Of a stretch of DNA of 64,000 bases, positions 24,379-30,116 are shown in pieces. Source of the stretch: Yoonia sp. F2084L (GTDB taxonomy: Bacteria; Pseudomonadota; Alphaproteobacteria; Rhodobacterales; Rhodobacteraceae); assembly GCF_023015625.1 (NCBI RefSeq), contig NZ_JALKAH010000001.1, positions 310,001 to 374,000 of the forward strand. The letters run 5' to 3'. The position numbers and the translations under genes were made by a program. The stretch's first letter is position 1, and each line of letters starts with the position of its first letter. A model generated the notes under the pieces. That model searched no databases. It had not been told where the DNA came from and saw only the letters and a list, made by a program, of their open reading frames with translations.

Positions 24379-24939
24379 TCAGTTGCCGCGCGATAGGGCA
24401 GCGACGCCGGTGCGGGCAATTTCCTGCAGGCCCAAAGGCTGCATCAGTTCGGCGAAAGCGTCGATCTTTTCGGATGTACCTGTGATCTCAAAAACGAATG
24501 ATTCCAAGGTGCTATCAACCACATTTGCCCTGAAAATGTCAGCCAGACGGATTGCTTCAATCCGGTGATCGCCGGTGCCCTGAACCTTGAAAAGTGCCAG
24601 TTCGCGTTCGACAGACGGGCCTTCGACGGTCAGATCATTGACCTTATGCACATCAACAATGCGGCCTAGCTGGGCCTTGATCTGCACGATGATCTGCGGC
24701 GTGCCGGTGGTGACAATCGTGATGCGGCTGCGATGGCCCAGATGATCCACCTCGGCCACGGTCAGGCTGTCGATGTTATAGCCGCGCCCTGCGAAAAGCC
24801 CGATGACGCGGGCCAGAACACCCGGTTCGTTTTCGACCAGAACAGCCAGCGTGTGTTGTTCTTCCTTGTCCGAAAACGAAGGCCGTAGGTCGTATGCAGA
24901 GTGGCTGGTGGCGCCTTTTTTGATTTTGAGCGGTGACAT
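24379..24939 (-). CDS. ilvH: Acetolactate synthase small (regulatory) subunit
   Basis: A 186-residue regulatory subunit with an N-terminal ACT domain (HTLAVLVENEPGVLARVIGLFAGRGYNIDSL, residues 28-58) that binds valine for feedback inhibition, and the C-terminal ALS_ss domain (RELALFKVQGTG ... VVDSTLESFVFEITG). The ATG follows an AAGGGAC ribosome site. It lies 80 bases after ilvI on the same strand; that gap contains three TGTACAG-like repeats. Confidence 0.95.
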   Translation of the reverse strand: MSPLKIKKGATSHSAYDLRPSFSDKEEQHTLAVLVENEPGVLARVIGLFAGRGYNIDSLTVAEVDHLGHRSRITIVTTGTPQIIVQIKAQLGRIVDVHKVNDLTVEGPSVERELALFKVQGTGDHRIEAIRLADIFRANVVDSTLESFVFEITGTSEKIDAFAELMQPLGLQEIARTGVAALSRGN

Positions 24940-25019: not shown

Positions 25020-26774
25020 TTACACCATCACCGCGCCATCGGACTTGATCGCATTCGCCACGTCCGCGTTCTCGCCCAACAGCATCTCATTGTGCGGCTT
25101 GCCTGATGGGATCATCGGGAAACAGTTTTCATGCTTTTCGACGAGACAATCAAACAGGACGGGGCCGTCATGGTTCAGCATCTCCATGATCGCGTCGTCC
25201 AGATCATCGGGATCGGAGCAGATGATGCCCTTCGCGCCAAATGCCTCGGCCAGTTTCACGAAATCAGGCAGGCTTTCTGACCAGCTGGATGAATAACGCT
25301 CACCATGCAGCAGTTCCTGCCATTGGCGCACCATGCCCAGACGTTCGTTGTTCAGGATGAACTGTTTGACGGGCAGGCCGTATTGCATCGCCGTGCCCAG
25401 TTCCTGCATGTTCATCAACCATGATGCCTCGCCTGCGACGTTGATGACCAGCGCATCAGGGTGGCCCATCTGCACACCGATGGAAGCGGGGAAACCGTAG
25501 CCCATCGTGCCCAGACCCCCGGAGGTCATCCAGCGGTTGGGGTCTTCGAACCCGAGGTATTGCGCGGCCCACATCTGGTGTTGGCCGACTTCGGTACAGA
25601 TGTAGCGGTCGTGCTTTTTGGTCAGCTCTTCCAGTCTGGACAGGGCGTATTGCGGTTTGATCACCTTGCCTTTTTGTTCAAACGCCAGACAGTCGACTTT
25701 CTTCCAGTCGTTGATCTGGTGCCACCATTTCTGGACATTCTCTTTATCCGTCTTGCGGCCGCGCGCCTTCCAGACATTCAACAAATCCTCAAGCACATGG
25801 GCCACGTCGCCCAGAATCGGGATATCGACCTTGATCACCTTGTTGATGGATGACGCGTCGATGTCGATATGTGCTTTGGTTGAACTGGGGCTGAAGGCAT
25901 CCAGACGACCCGTGATACGGTCATCAAACCGCGCGCCGATGTTGATCATCAGATCACAGTCGTGCATCGCCATGTTGGCCTCGTACAACCCGTGCATACC
26001 AAGCATACCCAGCCAGTTTTCGCCGGATGCAGGATAGCAGCCCAGACCCATCAGCGTAGATGTGATCGGGAAACCGGTTGCGGCCACCAGCTCGCGCAGC
26101 AACTGTGACGCTGCGGGGCCAGAGTTGATCACGCCACCGCCGGTGTAGAACAAGGGTCGCTTGGCCGTTTCCATCGCCGCCGCCAGTTCGGCGATCATTT
26201 CCATGTCACCTTTGACCTGCGGGTTGTAGTGCGTCTCGACCTGCCGTGCCTCGGTGTATTTGCCGGTGGCGAATTGCACATCCTTTGGAATGTCGATCAC
26301 AACAGGGCCCGGACGACCGGATGTGGCGATATGGAACGCCTCGTGCATCACGGACGCCAGCTTATCAGTCTCTTTGACCAGCCAGTTGTGCTTGGTACAG
26401 GGGCGGGTGATGCCCACGGTATCGCATTCCTGAAACGCATCAGAGCCGATCATGAAGGTCGGCACCTGACCGGTCAGCACAACAATCGGAATGCTGTCCA
26501 TCAAGGCGTCCGTCAGACCGGTCACGGCATTGGTTGCACCGGGGCCGGATGTCACCAGAGCAACACCGGGTTTGCCCGTGGACCGCGCATAACCTTCGGC
26601 GGCATGCACGGCCCCTTGTTCATGGCGGACCAGCACATGCTTGATGCTGTTTTGCTGAAAAATCTCGTCATAGATCGGTAGGACGGCACCACCGGGGTAT
26701 CCAAAGACCGTGTCCACGCCCTGATCAATCAGTGCTTGAACAACCATTCTTGCGCCCGTCATGGCTTTTGTCAT
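25020..26774 (-). CDS. ilvI: Acetolactate synthase large (catalytic) subunit
   Basis: A 584-residue thiamine-diphosphate enzyme making acetolactate (valine/leucine) or acetohydroxybutyrate (isoleucine). PYR domain residues 1-170 with the catalytic glutamate in VRHEQGAVHAAEGYAR; central domain about 190-330; PP domain about 370-550 with the Mg-TPP motif from NVAGEASWLMNMQELGTA to FILNNERLGM. The E-A-S variant of the usual GDGS motif is, to my knowledge, common in alphaproteobacteria. Transcription is controlled by the leader and terminator just upstream. Confidence 0.96.
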   Translation of the reverse strand: MTKAMTGARMVVQALIDQGVDTVFGYPGGAVLPIYDEIFQQNSIKHVLVRHEQGAVHAAEGYARSTGKPGVALVTSGPGATNAVTGLTDALMDSIPIVVLTGQVPTFMIGSDAFQECDTVGITRPCTKHNWLVKETDKLASVMHEAFHIATSGRPGPVVIDIPKDVQFATGKYTEARQVETHYNPQVKGDMEMIAELAAAMETAKRPLFYTGGGVINSGPAASQLLRELVAATGFPITSTLMGLGCYPASGENWLGMLGMHGLYEANMAMHDCDLMINIGARFDDRITGRLDAFSPSSTKAHIDIDASSINKVIKVDIPILGDVAHVLEDLLNVWKARGRKTDKENVQKWWHQINDWKKVDCLAFEQKGKVIKPQYALSRLEELTKKHDRYICTEVGQHQMWAAQYLGFEDPNRWMTSGGLGTMGYGFPASIGVQMGHPDALVINVAGEASWLMNMQELGTAMQYGLPVKQFILNNERLGMVRQWQELLHGERYSSSWSESLPDFVKLAEAFGAKGIICSDPDDLDDAIMEMLNHDGPVLFDCLVEKHENCFPMIPSGKPHNEMLLGENADVANAIKSDGAVMV

Positions 26775-26812: not shown

Positions 26813-26838
26813 AAAAAAACCCCCGAGTGTGTCGGGGG
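26813..26838 (-). terminator. Attenuator terminator of the ilvI-ilvH operon
   Basis: Read on the minus strand: CCCCCGA, a 5-base loop CACAC, TCGGGGG, then seven T. The stem is 7 bp (26832-26838 with 26820-26826) and the T run is 26813-26819. It lies 27 bases after the leader peptide stop and 39 bases before the ilvI start. This is a textbook intrinsic terminator placed to abort transcription before ilvI. Confidence 0.9.
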
Positions 26839-26880
26839 CGCATGGGATCGTTATGGTCTTACCGTTACCGGCCCATGCGC
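26838..26880 (-). promoter_or_regulatory. Alternative hairpin of the ilv leader
   Basis: GCGCATGGG, inside the last codons of the leader peptide (26872-26880), pairs perfectly over 9 bp with CCCATGCGC (26838-26846), which touches the first base of the terminator stem. A ribosome stalled at the Val/Leu/Ile codons leaves this hairpin free; a ribosome that finishes the leader covers its 5' arm. It is therefore the likely regulatory partner of the terminator, although the overlap between the two is only one base. Confidence 0.6.
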
Positions 26881-26912
26881 GTTTTTCTCACAATTAGTAC
26901 GACGTGTGTCAT
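26865..26912 (-). CDS. ilv operon leader peptide
   Basis: A 15-codon reading frame encoding MTHVVLIVRKTRMGR and then TAA. Five consecutive branched-chain codons (Val-Val-Leu-Ile-Val) at positions 4-8 are the amino acids whose synthesis the operon serves, so ribosome stalling there would sense their charged tRNAs. An AAGGA ribosome site lies eight bases before the ATG. A promoter sits about 16 bases upstream of the ATG and the terminator follows the stop. This is too short for usual gene lists. Confidence 0.85.
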   Translation of the reverse strand: MTHVVLIVRKTRMGR

Positions 26913-26934
26913 TGGGGTTCCTTCTCGTGAACAG

Positions 26935-26963
26935 ACACTAATCCGGGCGCTGAGGGGGGTCAA
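26935..26963 (-). promoter_or_regulatory. Promoter of the ilv leader and operon
   Basis: Minus strand -35 TTGACC (26958-26963), 17-base spacer, -10 TAGTGT (26935-26940). The start of transcription would be near 26928, giving a 16-base leader before the leader peptide ATG. Fits a housekeeping sigma factor. Confidence 0.65.
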
Positions 26964-27068: not shown

Positions 27069-27743
27069 TTACACCACTGAGCTTGAGCGCTTCATATTCT
27101 TGCTGTGCCGGGGCGTTGGTTTGACGGGCTTTTCGACCGCTCTGGGCTGACTGATCCAGGCAAAAATATAGGCGGCGATAAGAATAGTCGCCAGTATGCC
27201 CGCATAGACCGCAAGGATCTGGAGCATCGGCACGCTGAAATTCAACTGCGGCAGGTTTGCGATCGCCAGCGGTCCATACCAGGACACAAAAGATACAGCG
27301 CCGACCGTAATCAGTGCCAGTTTGCGTTGCAGCGGAATACCGTCCATCAGCATATGACCGGTTCGATTGGTAATGAAGGGGCTGATAAACCGGTGCACGA
27401 AAACCCCATTCAGCGTCAGAATGCAGACAATCACCACCTTGGCCCAGACCTTCTCATTCATCAGCAGGTCGGGATCATAAAACTGATAGAACAGCAGGAA
27501 GCCAATGCCGGTGATCCACATCATTATGATGCCCACGAGCACCAAATTAGCGCAAAAGTGAAAAATTTCGCATCCGTTCGTCGATACCCGGCGCATCATG
27601 AAAAAGCGCAATACGATAAGATCAAGAACCGTCGCAGCACCAAGCCCAAGCGCGAGCCCTGCGAAATGAAACAGCCGTAATATGCTTTTCGCCATTTGCT
27701 GTGGATCGCTGGACAGGGCGTTGACGATTTCGGTGAATTGCAT
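27069..27743 (-). CDS. Membrane protein of unknown function
   Basis: A 224-residue protein with about five transmembrane helices (near residues 22-45, 62-90, 98-118, 140-165 and 175-200) and a short basic tail (KPVKPTPRHSKNMKRSSS). The N-terminal third holds a HFAGLALGLGAATVLDLIVLRFF helix with a histidine, and a second histidine lies in EIFHFCANLVLVGI; paired histidines in helices recall small haem-containing or copper-resistance-like membrane proteins, but no family motif is certain. It is alone, with a promoter and a palindrome about 130 bases upstream. Confidence 0.7.
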   Translation of the reverse strand: MQFTEIVNALSSDPQQMAKSILRLFHFAGLALGLGAATVLDLIVLRFFMMRRVSTNGCEIFHFCANLVLVGIIMMWITGIGFLLFYQFYDPDLLMNEKVWAKVVIVCILTLNGVFVHRFISPFITNRTGHMLMDGIPLQRKLALITVGAVSFVSWYGPLAIANLPQLNFSVPMLQILAVYAGILATILIAAYIFAWISQPRAVEKPVKPTPRHSKNMKRSSSVV

Positions 27744-29033: not shown

Positions 29034-30116
29034 ATGACGAAAGGTTCGACTAGCGTCGCTATGGCTGTGACCGCGGCTGCAGGCTTTATGACATTCGGGG
29101 CCACGCAGATTCAGGCACAGGAACAATGTACAAACTACACTGTCGTGCGAGGCGACACGCTGAGCCGGATCGCGTCGGCTGCCGATGTTGAAGGCGGTTT
29201 TCAGTTTTTGTTCAACGCCAACACCAACGTCCTGGAAAACCCCAACCTGCTTGAGGTTGGTCAAGTGCTGCGCATTCCGTGTGCCGATGGTTCGCTACCA
29301 GACGCCACAACGACGACGGCTTCTTCTGTTGTAAGACCCGCCACACCTGCGCCGACCACCTCGACCCCCAGCCGCCCGCTGCGCATTACAACGGGCACCG
29401 GGTATGCGCCGTTCACGGATGAAGACCTGCCCGGTGGCGGGATGATTACGCGAATGGTGGAGCGGTCCATGGAACTGGGTAACCCTGATCAGGAGTACAA
29501 CCTGATTTTCATCAACGACTGGGGCTCACATCTGGAAACGCTGCTGCCGACAGGTGCCATTGATATGGCGTTCCCGTGGTTCCTGCCAAACTGTGATCTG
29601 GTTGATAACCTCTCTGAGGCCAGCGCATACCGCTGCACCGATTTCAACCACTCTGAGCCGTTTTACGAAATCCTGGTGGATTTCTTTACGCTTGCTGACA
29701 GCCCATATGCCTCAGCAACCAGCCATGCGGACCTGTTCGGCGCACGCATCTGCCGTCCCGAAGCATGGTTTACCTTTGATCTTGAGGCGGAAAGGTTGGT
29801 CGCGCCGAACATCACCTATGTGACCCCGGTGTCGCAGCAGGAGTGTGTACAGCTTTTGGCAAATGGCGAAGTTGACGTGATGACCTACGACACGCTGCCA
29901 GCAGAGGAAGACATTCGCGAGTCTGGTTTCGAAGACCGGATTACGAAGCTTGAACCGCTAAGTGGATCCGTGTCGTCGCATATCTTTGTGTCCAAGGACA
30001 ATGCGTTCGCCAACGAGGCCTTGCCGATCATCAATGCCGGACTGGAAGAACTGCGGTTGTCGGGTGAATGGTTCAACATTGTGCGCGAAAGCATTCAGGA
30101 AACGGTTGAAAACTAG
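29034..30116 (+). CDS. LysM domain plus periplasmic solute-binding domain protein
   Basis: A 360-residue exported protein. Signal peptide at residues 1-29 (ending ATQIQAQ); LysM peptidoglycan-binding domain at about 33-83 (NYTVVRGDTLSRIAS ... EVGQVLRIPC); a Thr/Pro-rich linker at about 90-115; then a family 3 solute-binding-like domain (RITTGTGYAPFTDEDLPGGGMITRMVERSM onward) to the end. A solute-binding domain tethered to the cell wall instead of a transporter is unusual; no ABC permease gene is nearby. Possible sensor or accessory; ligand unknown. AAAAGGAAAAATC precedes the ATG. A strong terminator follows. Confidence 0.8.
   Translation: MTKGSTSVAMAVTAAAGFMTFGATQIQAQEQCTNYTVVRGDTLSRIASAADVEGGFQFLFNANTNVLENPNLLEVGQVLRIPCADGSLPDATTTTASSVVRPATPAPTTSTPSRPLRITTGTGYAPFTDEDLPGGGMITRMVERSMELGNPDQEYNLIFINDWGSHLETLLPTGAIDMAFPWFLPNCDLVDNLSEASAYRCTDFNHSEPFYEILVDFFTLADSPYASATSHADLFGARICRPEAWFTFDLEAERLVAPNITYVTPVSQQECVQLLANGEVDVMTYDTLPAEEDIRESGFEDRITKLEPLSGSVSSHIFVSKDNAFANEALPIINAGLEELRLSGEWFNIVRESIQETVEN

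Follow-up and report, generated by a model that had tools for sequence, protein, structure and literature searches.

A predicted branched-chain amino acid attenuator of ilvIH in Yoonia sp. F2084L and other Rhodobacterales, with an alternative hairpin that abuts the terminator

In the branched-chain amino acid (BCAA) attenuators of E. coli K-12, ivbL-ilvBN, ilvL-ilvXGMEDA and leuL, a leader ORF with BCAA codons, an alternative hairpin and a terminator precede the operon. A leader with the same parts lies ahead of ilvIH in Yoonia sp. F2084L, on the minus strand of the 64,000-nucleotide stretch of DNA analysed here (the window), where we located a promoter, a ribosome site, a 15-codon leader ORF, a 9-bp alternative hairpin and an intrinsic terminator, all of them as described before ilvI in the original prediction, including the five BCAA codons of the leader. 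The alternative hairpin abuts the terminator, with one base in common, or two with the basal wobble pair. The overlap had been given as one base, which holds for Watson-Crick pairs (C26838 alone); the G-U pair at the foot of the terminator would bring in G26839 as a second. How could a hairpin that takes so little from the terminator decide whether transcription continues into ilvIH? The features of the element are as follows.

26958..26963, minus strand: -35 box TTGACC (from the sequence)
26935..26940, minus strand: -10 box TAGTGT, with a 17-base spacer (from the sequence)
26918..26923, minus strand: Shine-Dalgarno-like AAGGAA (from the sequence)
26865..26912, minus strand: leader ORF MTHVVLIVRKTRMGR and stop, 15 codons plus stop, with ATG from 26912 and TAA ending at 26865 (from the sequence)
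26889..26903, minus strand: control codons GTC GTA CTA ATT GTG (V V L I V), codons 4-8 (from the sequence)
26872..26880, minus strand: 5' arm of the alternative (2:3) hairpin, GCGCATGGG, within codons 11-14 (sequence and covariation)
26862..26871, minus strand: stop-codon hairpin CCG-GUAA-CGG, with the UAA stop inside a GNRA-type tetraloop (sequence and relatives)
26838..26846, minus strand: 3' arm of the alternative hairpin, CCCATGCGC, whose final C (26838) is also in the terminator (sequence and covariation)
26819..26839, minus strand: terminator hairpin GCCCCCGA-CACAC-TCGGGGGT (terminator scan; helix paired in relatives)
26813..26819, minus strand: T7 tract (from the sequence)
25020..26774, minus strand: ilvI, acetolactate synthase large subunit, 584 aa (NF006581, 1129.2 bits, cut-off 974)
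24379..24939, minus strand: ilvH, acetolactate synthase small subunit, 186 aa (NF008864, 220.6 bits)

The two arms of the alternative hairpin (26880-26872 and 26846-26838) form nine Watson-Crick pairs, and ilvH comes after ilvI, downstream of the leader. The leader RNA of the window folds better than its shuffles (z -3.1); the terminator alone is unremarkable, with one such site found and 1.2 expected in shuffles. The promoter of the window is poor in consensus bases (TAGTGT has 3 of 6) and was unlisted by the promoter scan. No Rfam 15 family reached its gathering score anywhere in the 64 kb. The region 5' of the leader encodes a 224-aa putative membrane protein (27069-27743, minus strand) that matched nothing in NCBIfam or Pfam at E 0.001. 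Farther along, at 29034-30116 on the plus strand, lies a protein that looks secreted, whose one Pfam match is a LysM domain (PF01476) and in which a periplasmic substrate-binding-like region can be made out by eye.

For comparison, we gathered 110 ilvI loci (L002-L111), comprising 80 named loci (the best 80 of 591) and 30 loci from 40 genomes of the genus. A candidate leader ORF was obtained at 102 of them; removal of nine loci of another type (L067, L071, L072, L074, L076, L077, L079, L080, and L081) and three duplicates left 90 distinct leaders, 67 of which, the window included, were aligned after near copies had been removed by hand. The eight loci at which no ORF was picked are L013, which is truncated by a contig end, L050, L062, L064, L066, L068, L070, and L078. 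The element is absent from three of these, the named Paracoccus loci L062, L066, and L068. In L050, L064, and L078, as read from the sequence, the hairpins are retained and the control codons are degenerate (e.g. MTLGAAIVAERRMGR); the sensor may have been lost or changed there.

Of the 90 leaders, 80 have exactly 15 residues, 83 encode a peptide ending in MGR, and 85 have a longest BCAA run of at least four residues. Their promoters are conserved as well, with TTGAC found at most 90 nt 5' of the leader start in 88 of the 90 (6.7% in base shuffles) and TANNNT at a spacer of 16-18 in 74 (0.04% in base shuffles). By a loose word list, used without a shuffle control, a Shine-Dalgarno-like word stands at most 18 nt from the leader start in 88. 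A covariance model, R1, built on the 67 aligned leaders, window among them, found a match at E <= 0.01 in 263 of 292 genomes from the order, a count that includes the genome of strain F2084L and the donors of the model, and in 107 of 112 genera; ilvI was nearby in all 22 fetched match loci that were checked (L155-L176). The model missed 29 genomes, and among the 20 of these that were listed, 12 fall in one genus. In the genome of strain F2084L there is one strong match (100.4 bits). A second, C6 (26.9 bits), was rejected as a bare terminator by eye, and the two other weak matches lie on the opposite strand of the strong match and of C6. Among 28 ilvI loci of other families (L123-L150), a BCAA-type leader with a terminator could be read in L133 only, and a reading of 17 further ilvI loci (L194-L210) gave no convincing leader. 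In L203 and L204 an ORF with LIIFV lies ahead of a weak hairpin.

The leaders also differ from ordinary genes in their choice among synonymous codons. Within codons 2-10 of the 90 leaders, Val is encoded 258 times, 112 of them by GTA, whose share is 4.6% in the accompanying ilvI genes and 5.7% in ten genes of the window; CTA makes up 57 of 117 Leu codons, against 1.8% and 4.0%; and ATT accounts for 62 of 104 Ile codons, against 15% in ilvI, with the proviso that Fisher values for this bias overstate independence because the leaders are related by descent. According to the theory set out in the parts of PMC1183508 covered, particular synonym choice is required of control codons, and CUA is the best Leu control codon in E. 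coli. The bias to GTA and CTA, taken with that theory, is evidence for a starvation sensor that does not depend on the hairpins.

The hairpins are themselves supported by compensatory changes. Across the 67 aligned leaders, 95.2% of 999 cells of the named structure are paired (96.4% for helix 2:3 and 93.4% for the terminator helix), and eight of its 15 pairs show double-sided changes against 1.6 in shuffles, a count that none of 500 shuffles reached; sliding the structure by one to three columns gave at most four such pairs. Unconstrained RNAalifold of all 67 rows recovered the terminator and did not recover helix 2:3. With five divergent rows omitted (L027, L028, L035, L053, and L056), the remaining 62 gave helix 2:3 as well as the terminator, the one abutting the other, together with the stop hairpin. 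The reading as an ilv attenuator is upheld in that the Val/Leu/Ile codons, the promoter and both hairpins are conserved, the hairpins with covariation. It had been proposed that leaders be compared in related genomes and that a lack of conservation of the codons or the terminator would speak against the element; both proved to be conserved.

What sets these leaders apart is the joint between the two hairpins. With the basal G-Y pair included, the top-ranked helix overlaps the terminator by two bases in 60 of the 90 leaders, by three in 23, and by four in two; the exceptions are Planktomarina L027 (0), Amylibacter L053 (-8), Palleronia L028 (5), L035 (-16), and L056 (-17), and the second-ranked helix overlaps by 2 in L053, 3 in L056, and 5 in L035. 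Alignment columns 82-95, which hold arm 3 and the start of the terminator, are free of gaps in all 67 rows, whereas the lengths of the alternative loop and the terminator loop vary. The joint of two independent hairpins should drift as their loops do. The C that the two hairpins share has an invariant G as its partner in each of them, in all 67 rows. A small overlap is the rule in the order.

The effect of a stalled ribosome was assessed in two kinds of fold. In the truncated-transcript fold, which ends before the 3' arm of the terminator, we counted the terminator bases sequestered at the control codons. The window sequesters 1.67 of its eight such bases on average and 2.0 at most; seven E. 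coli leaders sequester 4.9-8.2 on average and 5.0-9.0 at most. The mean over control codons in the 90 leaders ranges from 1.5 to 5.4 (median 2.4) and is below 4.9 in 89; the maximum ranges from 2.0 to 7.4 (median 3.9), and 72 leaders stay under the smallest maximum seen in E. coli while 18 do not. The groups separate better by mean than by maximum, and the modelled contrast with the E. coli attenuators is not clean, as 18 of the 90 leaders fall in the E. coli range at single codons. The hisL control sequestered 8.6 bases even at the stop codon, so that it shows no switching in this fold. If the ribosome is taken to cover 12 nt downstream, all nine alternative pairs of the window could still form with a stall at codons 4-6, seven at codon 7, and five at codon 8; the 5' arm sits 5-13 nt before the stop codon, where a stalled ribosome would leave it exposed and one that has reached the stop would cover it.

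When the whole terminator of the window is folded, its outermost G-U pair has a predicted probability of 0.12 with a stall at codons 4-6 against 0.89 with the ribosome at the stop codon, and the adjacent C-G pair goes from 1.00 to 0.39 on stalling at codons 4-6. In equilibrium folds of the whole leader, the median loss on stalling is half a terminator pair among the 83 MGR leaders, and the basal G-C pair drops below 0.5 in only 28 of them. Applied to E. coli, the same model shows switching for pheL and ivbL, a little of it for ilvL, and almost none for the thr, leu, his and trp leaders. Since it misses several proven attenuators of E. coli, equilibrium energies are not decisive, and we do not use them as proof. 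In folds with and without a stalled ribosome, as had been suggested, the basal pairs of the window weaken on stalling, and whole-leader equilibrium folds switch little. The suspicion that switching may differ from the E. coli model holds good as anatomy, as the overlap is small throughout the order and the mean over control codons lies below that of seven of seven E. coli leaders. The geometry, called classical, is so by half: the folds predict no 1:2 hairpin, and arm 2 of the alternative hairpin is part of the leader's coding sequence. We found no pairing between the control-codon region and arm 2, as a 1:2 protector hairpin would have, in the fold of the window or in the RNAalifold runs. To our knowledge, such a protector is not universal among ribosome-mediated attenuators. 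Given the lack of a predicted 1:2 hairpin here, read-through would be expected if the leader were left untranslated.

Between the arms of the alternative hairpin, a smaller hairpin surrounds the stop codon. At least 3 bp enclose the stop in 87 of 90 leaders, against 36% with shuffled flanks, and the loop is GUAA in 72 and GUGA in nine. Double changes to U-A occur in three leaders and to G-C in one; two of the three pairs have double changes, a number reached by 32 of 500 shuffles, which makes the support moderate. In the E. coli controls, a stop hairpin is seen in thrL, pheL and, weakly, trpL, and in none of leuL, ivbL, ilvL, and hisL. The stop hairpin may make the alternative helix form faster by leaving it a shorter loop.

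Related leaders of a second type bear on how the joint might work. In six ilvI leaders of this other type (L071, L076, L077, L079, L080, and L133), the alternative hairpin ends before the terminator, with a gap of 5-8 bases to the first G-C pair of the terminator in L071, L076, L079, L080, and L133; L077 is uncertain, being gapped by the first helix ranking and having another helix ranked first in a later comparison. L071 is a Neomegalonema MAG, placed in Rhodobacterales by NCBI, and L076, L077, L079, and L080 are taken to be Hyphomicrobiales. The covariance model matched 16 of 241 genomes of the class, four of them in the family of the window. Five of the 12 matches outside that family (42-74 bits) precede a Bcr/CflA-looking MFS gene; the remaining seven are weak, and the five of them that were read, L182-L185 and L187, were set aside as bare terminators by eye. 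The leader of the window also matches Rfam RF02502, Atu_C8, a "Rhizobiales sRNA", over its full length and below threshold (19.7 bits, E 0.12, gathering 50). A search with RF02502 gave any match in two of 115 genomes, one of them above threshold (L112, in genome G146), and in the family of G146 three of 36 genomes have a match ahead of a Bcr/CflA-like gene. The Atu_C8 match L112 resembles the ilvI leaders in its Val-rich leader ORF with RRMGK and in the same hairpin arms; it differs in that the arm ends 8 bases before the terminator's first G-C pair and in its downstream gene, a Bcr/CflA-type MFS transporter.

Altogether, the nine transporter leaders from other alphaproteobacterial families (L112, L177-L181, and L191-L193) all precede Bcr/CflA-like MFS genes, as judged by eye; two of the transporter proteins were tested against TIGR00710, and one scored above the cut-off and the other 1 bit under it. 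Leader peptides of this group include MKFVVVVAGDRRMDR and MHILIVVVGERRLDR. Six of the nine have a BCAA run, and L180, L181, and L193 are without a run of three BCAA residues. From these sequences, the Atu_C8 family, listed as an sRNA, may be an attenuator. The closest Bcr/CflA homologue in the genome of strain F2084L (46% identity) has no such leader upstream. A long inverted repeat is found upstream of that homologue (L211:1380-1415) and could be a repressor operator.

Taken together, the element is very probably a ribosome-mediated BCAA transcription attenuator by which ilvIH responds to how much charged tRNA for Val, Leu and Ile is available. It has most of the features that define an attenuator, namely tandem codons, a terminator and an arm that depends on stalling, with translation and the switch predicted from the sequence. 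With ample amino acids, the ribosome would reach the stop and cover the 5' arm GCGCAUGGG, the terminator would close beside the U tract, and transcription would end. A ribosome stalled on codons 4-7 would leave the 5' arm free to pair with CCCAUGCGC once this is transcribed, giving a 9-bp helix flush with the terminator and without a linker, which would retain the one or two bases by which the terminator closes beside the U tract. The held bases, together with the bulk of a linker-free helix at the mouth of the RNA exit channel, would then let the polymerase read through. From the modelled leader we infer translation, stalling and read-through alike. Intrinsic termination requires a stem that is closed up to the U tract, and a flush helix that holds its last base or bases is therefore well placed to prevent it. 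For this step we favour, giving it about an even chance, a clamp by which the foot of the terminator stem is kept from closing, rather than wholesale strand exchange.

Antitermination may also do without competition for bases, a tentative reading to which we give less weight: the helix, flush with an intact upper stem or, in the relatives, ending a few bases before it, would block termination by position alone, holding the foot of the terminator stem back so that it is not drawn into the RNA exit channel. This purely positional effect is retained because base sharing cannot operate in the gapped leaders, and it also takes a related cassette to be used before both ilvI and Bcr/CflA-type transporters. 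Classical strand exchange, in which a longer, species-specific pairing would join the alternative hairpin and displace most of the terminator, is somewhat less likely still. The 18 leaders that engage at least five terminator bases at some control codon (L023 with 5.9, L040 with 6.5, L059 with 7.4) and Palleronia L028, whose main helix shares five bases, argue for it; however, the main helix overlaps by two to four bases in 85 of 90, the maximum in the 30 loci of the genus is 2.0-3.2 in 23 and 3.7-6.3 in seven, and the extra pairs are not common to different species.

Two observations would suit a pause or coupling hairpin that is no antiterminator, with control exerted through ribosome-polymerase coupling or the timing of release at the hairpin-borne stop: the GUAA or GUGA loops that carry the stop codon in 81 of the leaders, out of 90, and the 5-8 bases that set the hairpin off from the terminator in leaders of the other type. 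We consider this improbable, as it leaves the fixed joint of arm 3 and terminator (a gap in 0 of 67) unexplained, and stop hairpins, seen also in E. coli thrL, pheL and, weakly, trpL, are not peculiar to an abutting geometry. A main role in trans for the terminated leader, whether as an sRNA or as a peptide for whose function RMGR is kept, is very unlikely: the precedent of Sinorhizobium rnTrpL/peTrpL, as told in the parts of PMC10117765 covered, the MGR end of 83 peptides, and the Leu that replaces Met in transporter leaders L177 and L178 despite the resulting mismatch in the RNA arm speak for such a role, but RMGR is encoded by the RNA arm itself, and the differing peptides of L027, L053, and L056 still go with a first- or second-ranked helix that ends at the terminator (overlap 0, 2, and 3). 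As for a plain terminator beside a chance ORF, with no regulation, terminator-like sites are as common as the shuffles of the window indicate, yet ORF length, codon bias, covariation, and promoter are conserved in 90 leaders, and this last explanation is hardly credible.

Attenuation of ilv genes in alphaproteobacteria is already on record: the parts of PMC4117421 and PMC1273637 covered tell of the Caulobacter attenuator of ilvBN/ilvIH (Tarleton 1994) and of an alphaproteobacterial ilvB leader peptide (Vitreschak 2004). By those descriptions these leaders resemble the present one in operon, class, tandem Ile and Val codons, and terminator. The enterobacterial leaders ivbL, ilvL, and leuL differ from it in that they sequester at most 6.0-8.5 terminator bases at control codons, against 2.0 in the window, have leaders of 28-32 residues instead of 15, and are without the stop-codon hairpin that the window has. 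The three-hairpin attenuator of ilvBNC in Corynebacterium glutamicum likewise precedes a BCAA operon and has a terminator and an antiterminator; as described in the parts of PMC11857589 covered, low-energy transitions were proposed for it, as was an anti-antiterminator, whereas none of the latter is predicted in the window. Other motifs of Rhodobacterales, a cysS uORF among them, are reported in PMC8632094, and the ilvI leader is not among its parts that were covered. In the open-licence literature searched, which does not include Vitreschak 2004, we found no account of this leader in Rhodobacterales and no description of the order-wide abutting geometry, the stop hairpin, or the kinship with transporter leaders.

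If the favoured step is true, an antiterminator could work by withholding no more than one or two closing pairs from a terminator, or the space for them, and attenuators of this sort would escape any search that requires an extensive overlap. The fixed joint would then be a natural test of how far a terminator stem must reach toward the U tract, and an Rfam "sRNA" family would be suggested as the attenuator of a transporter gene.
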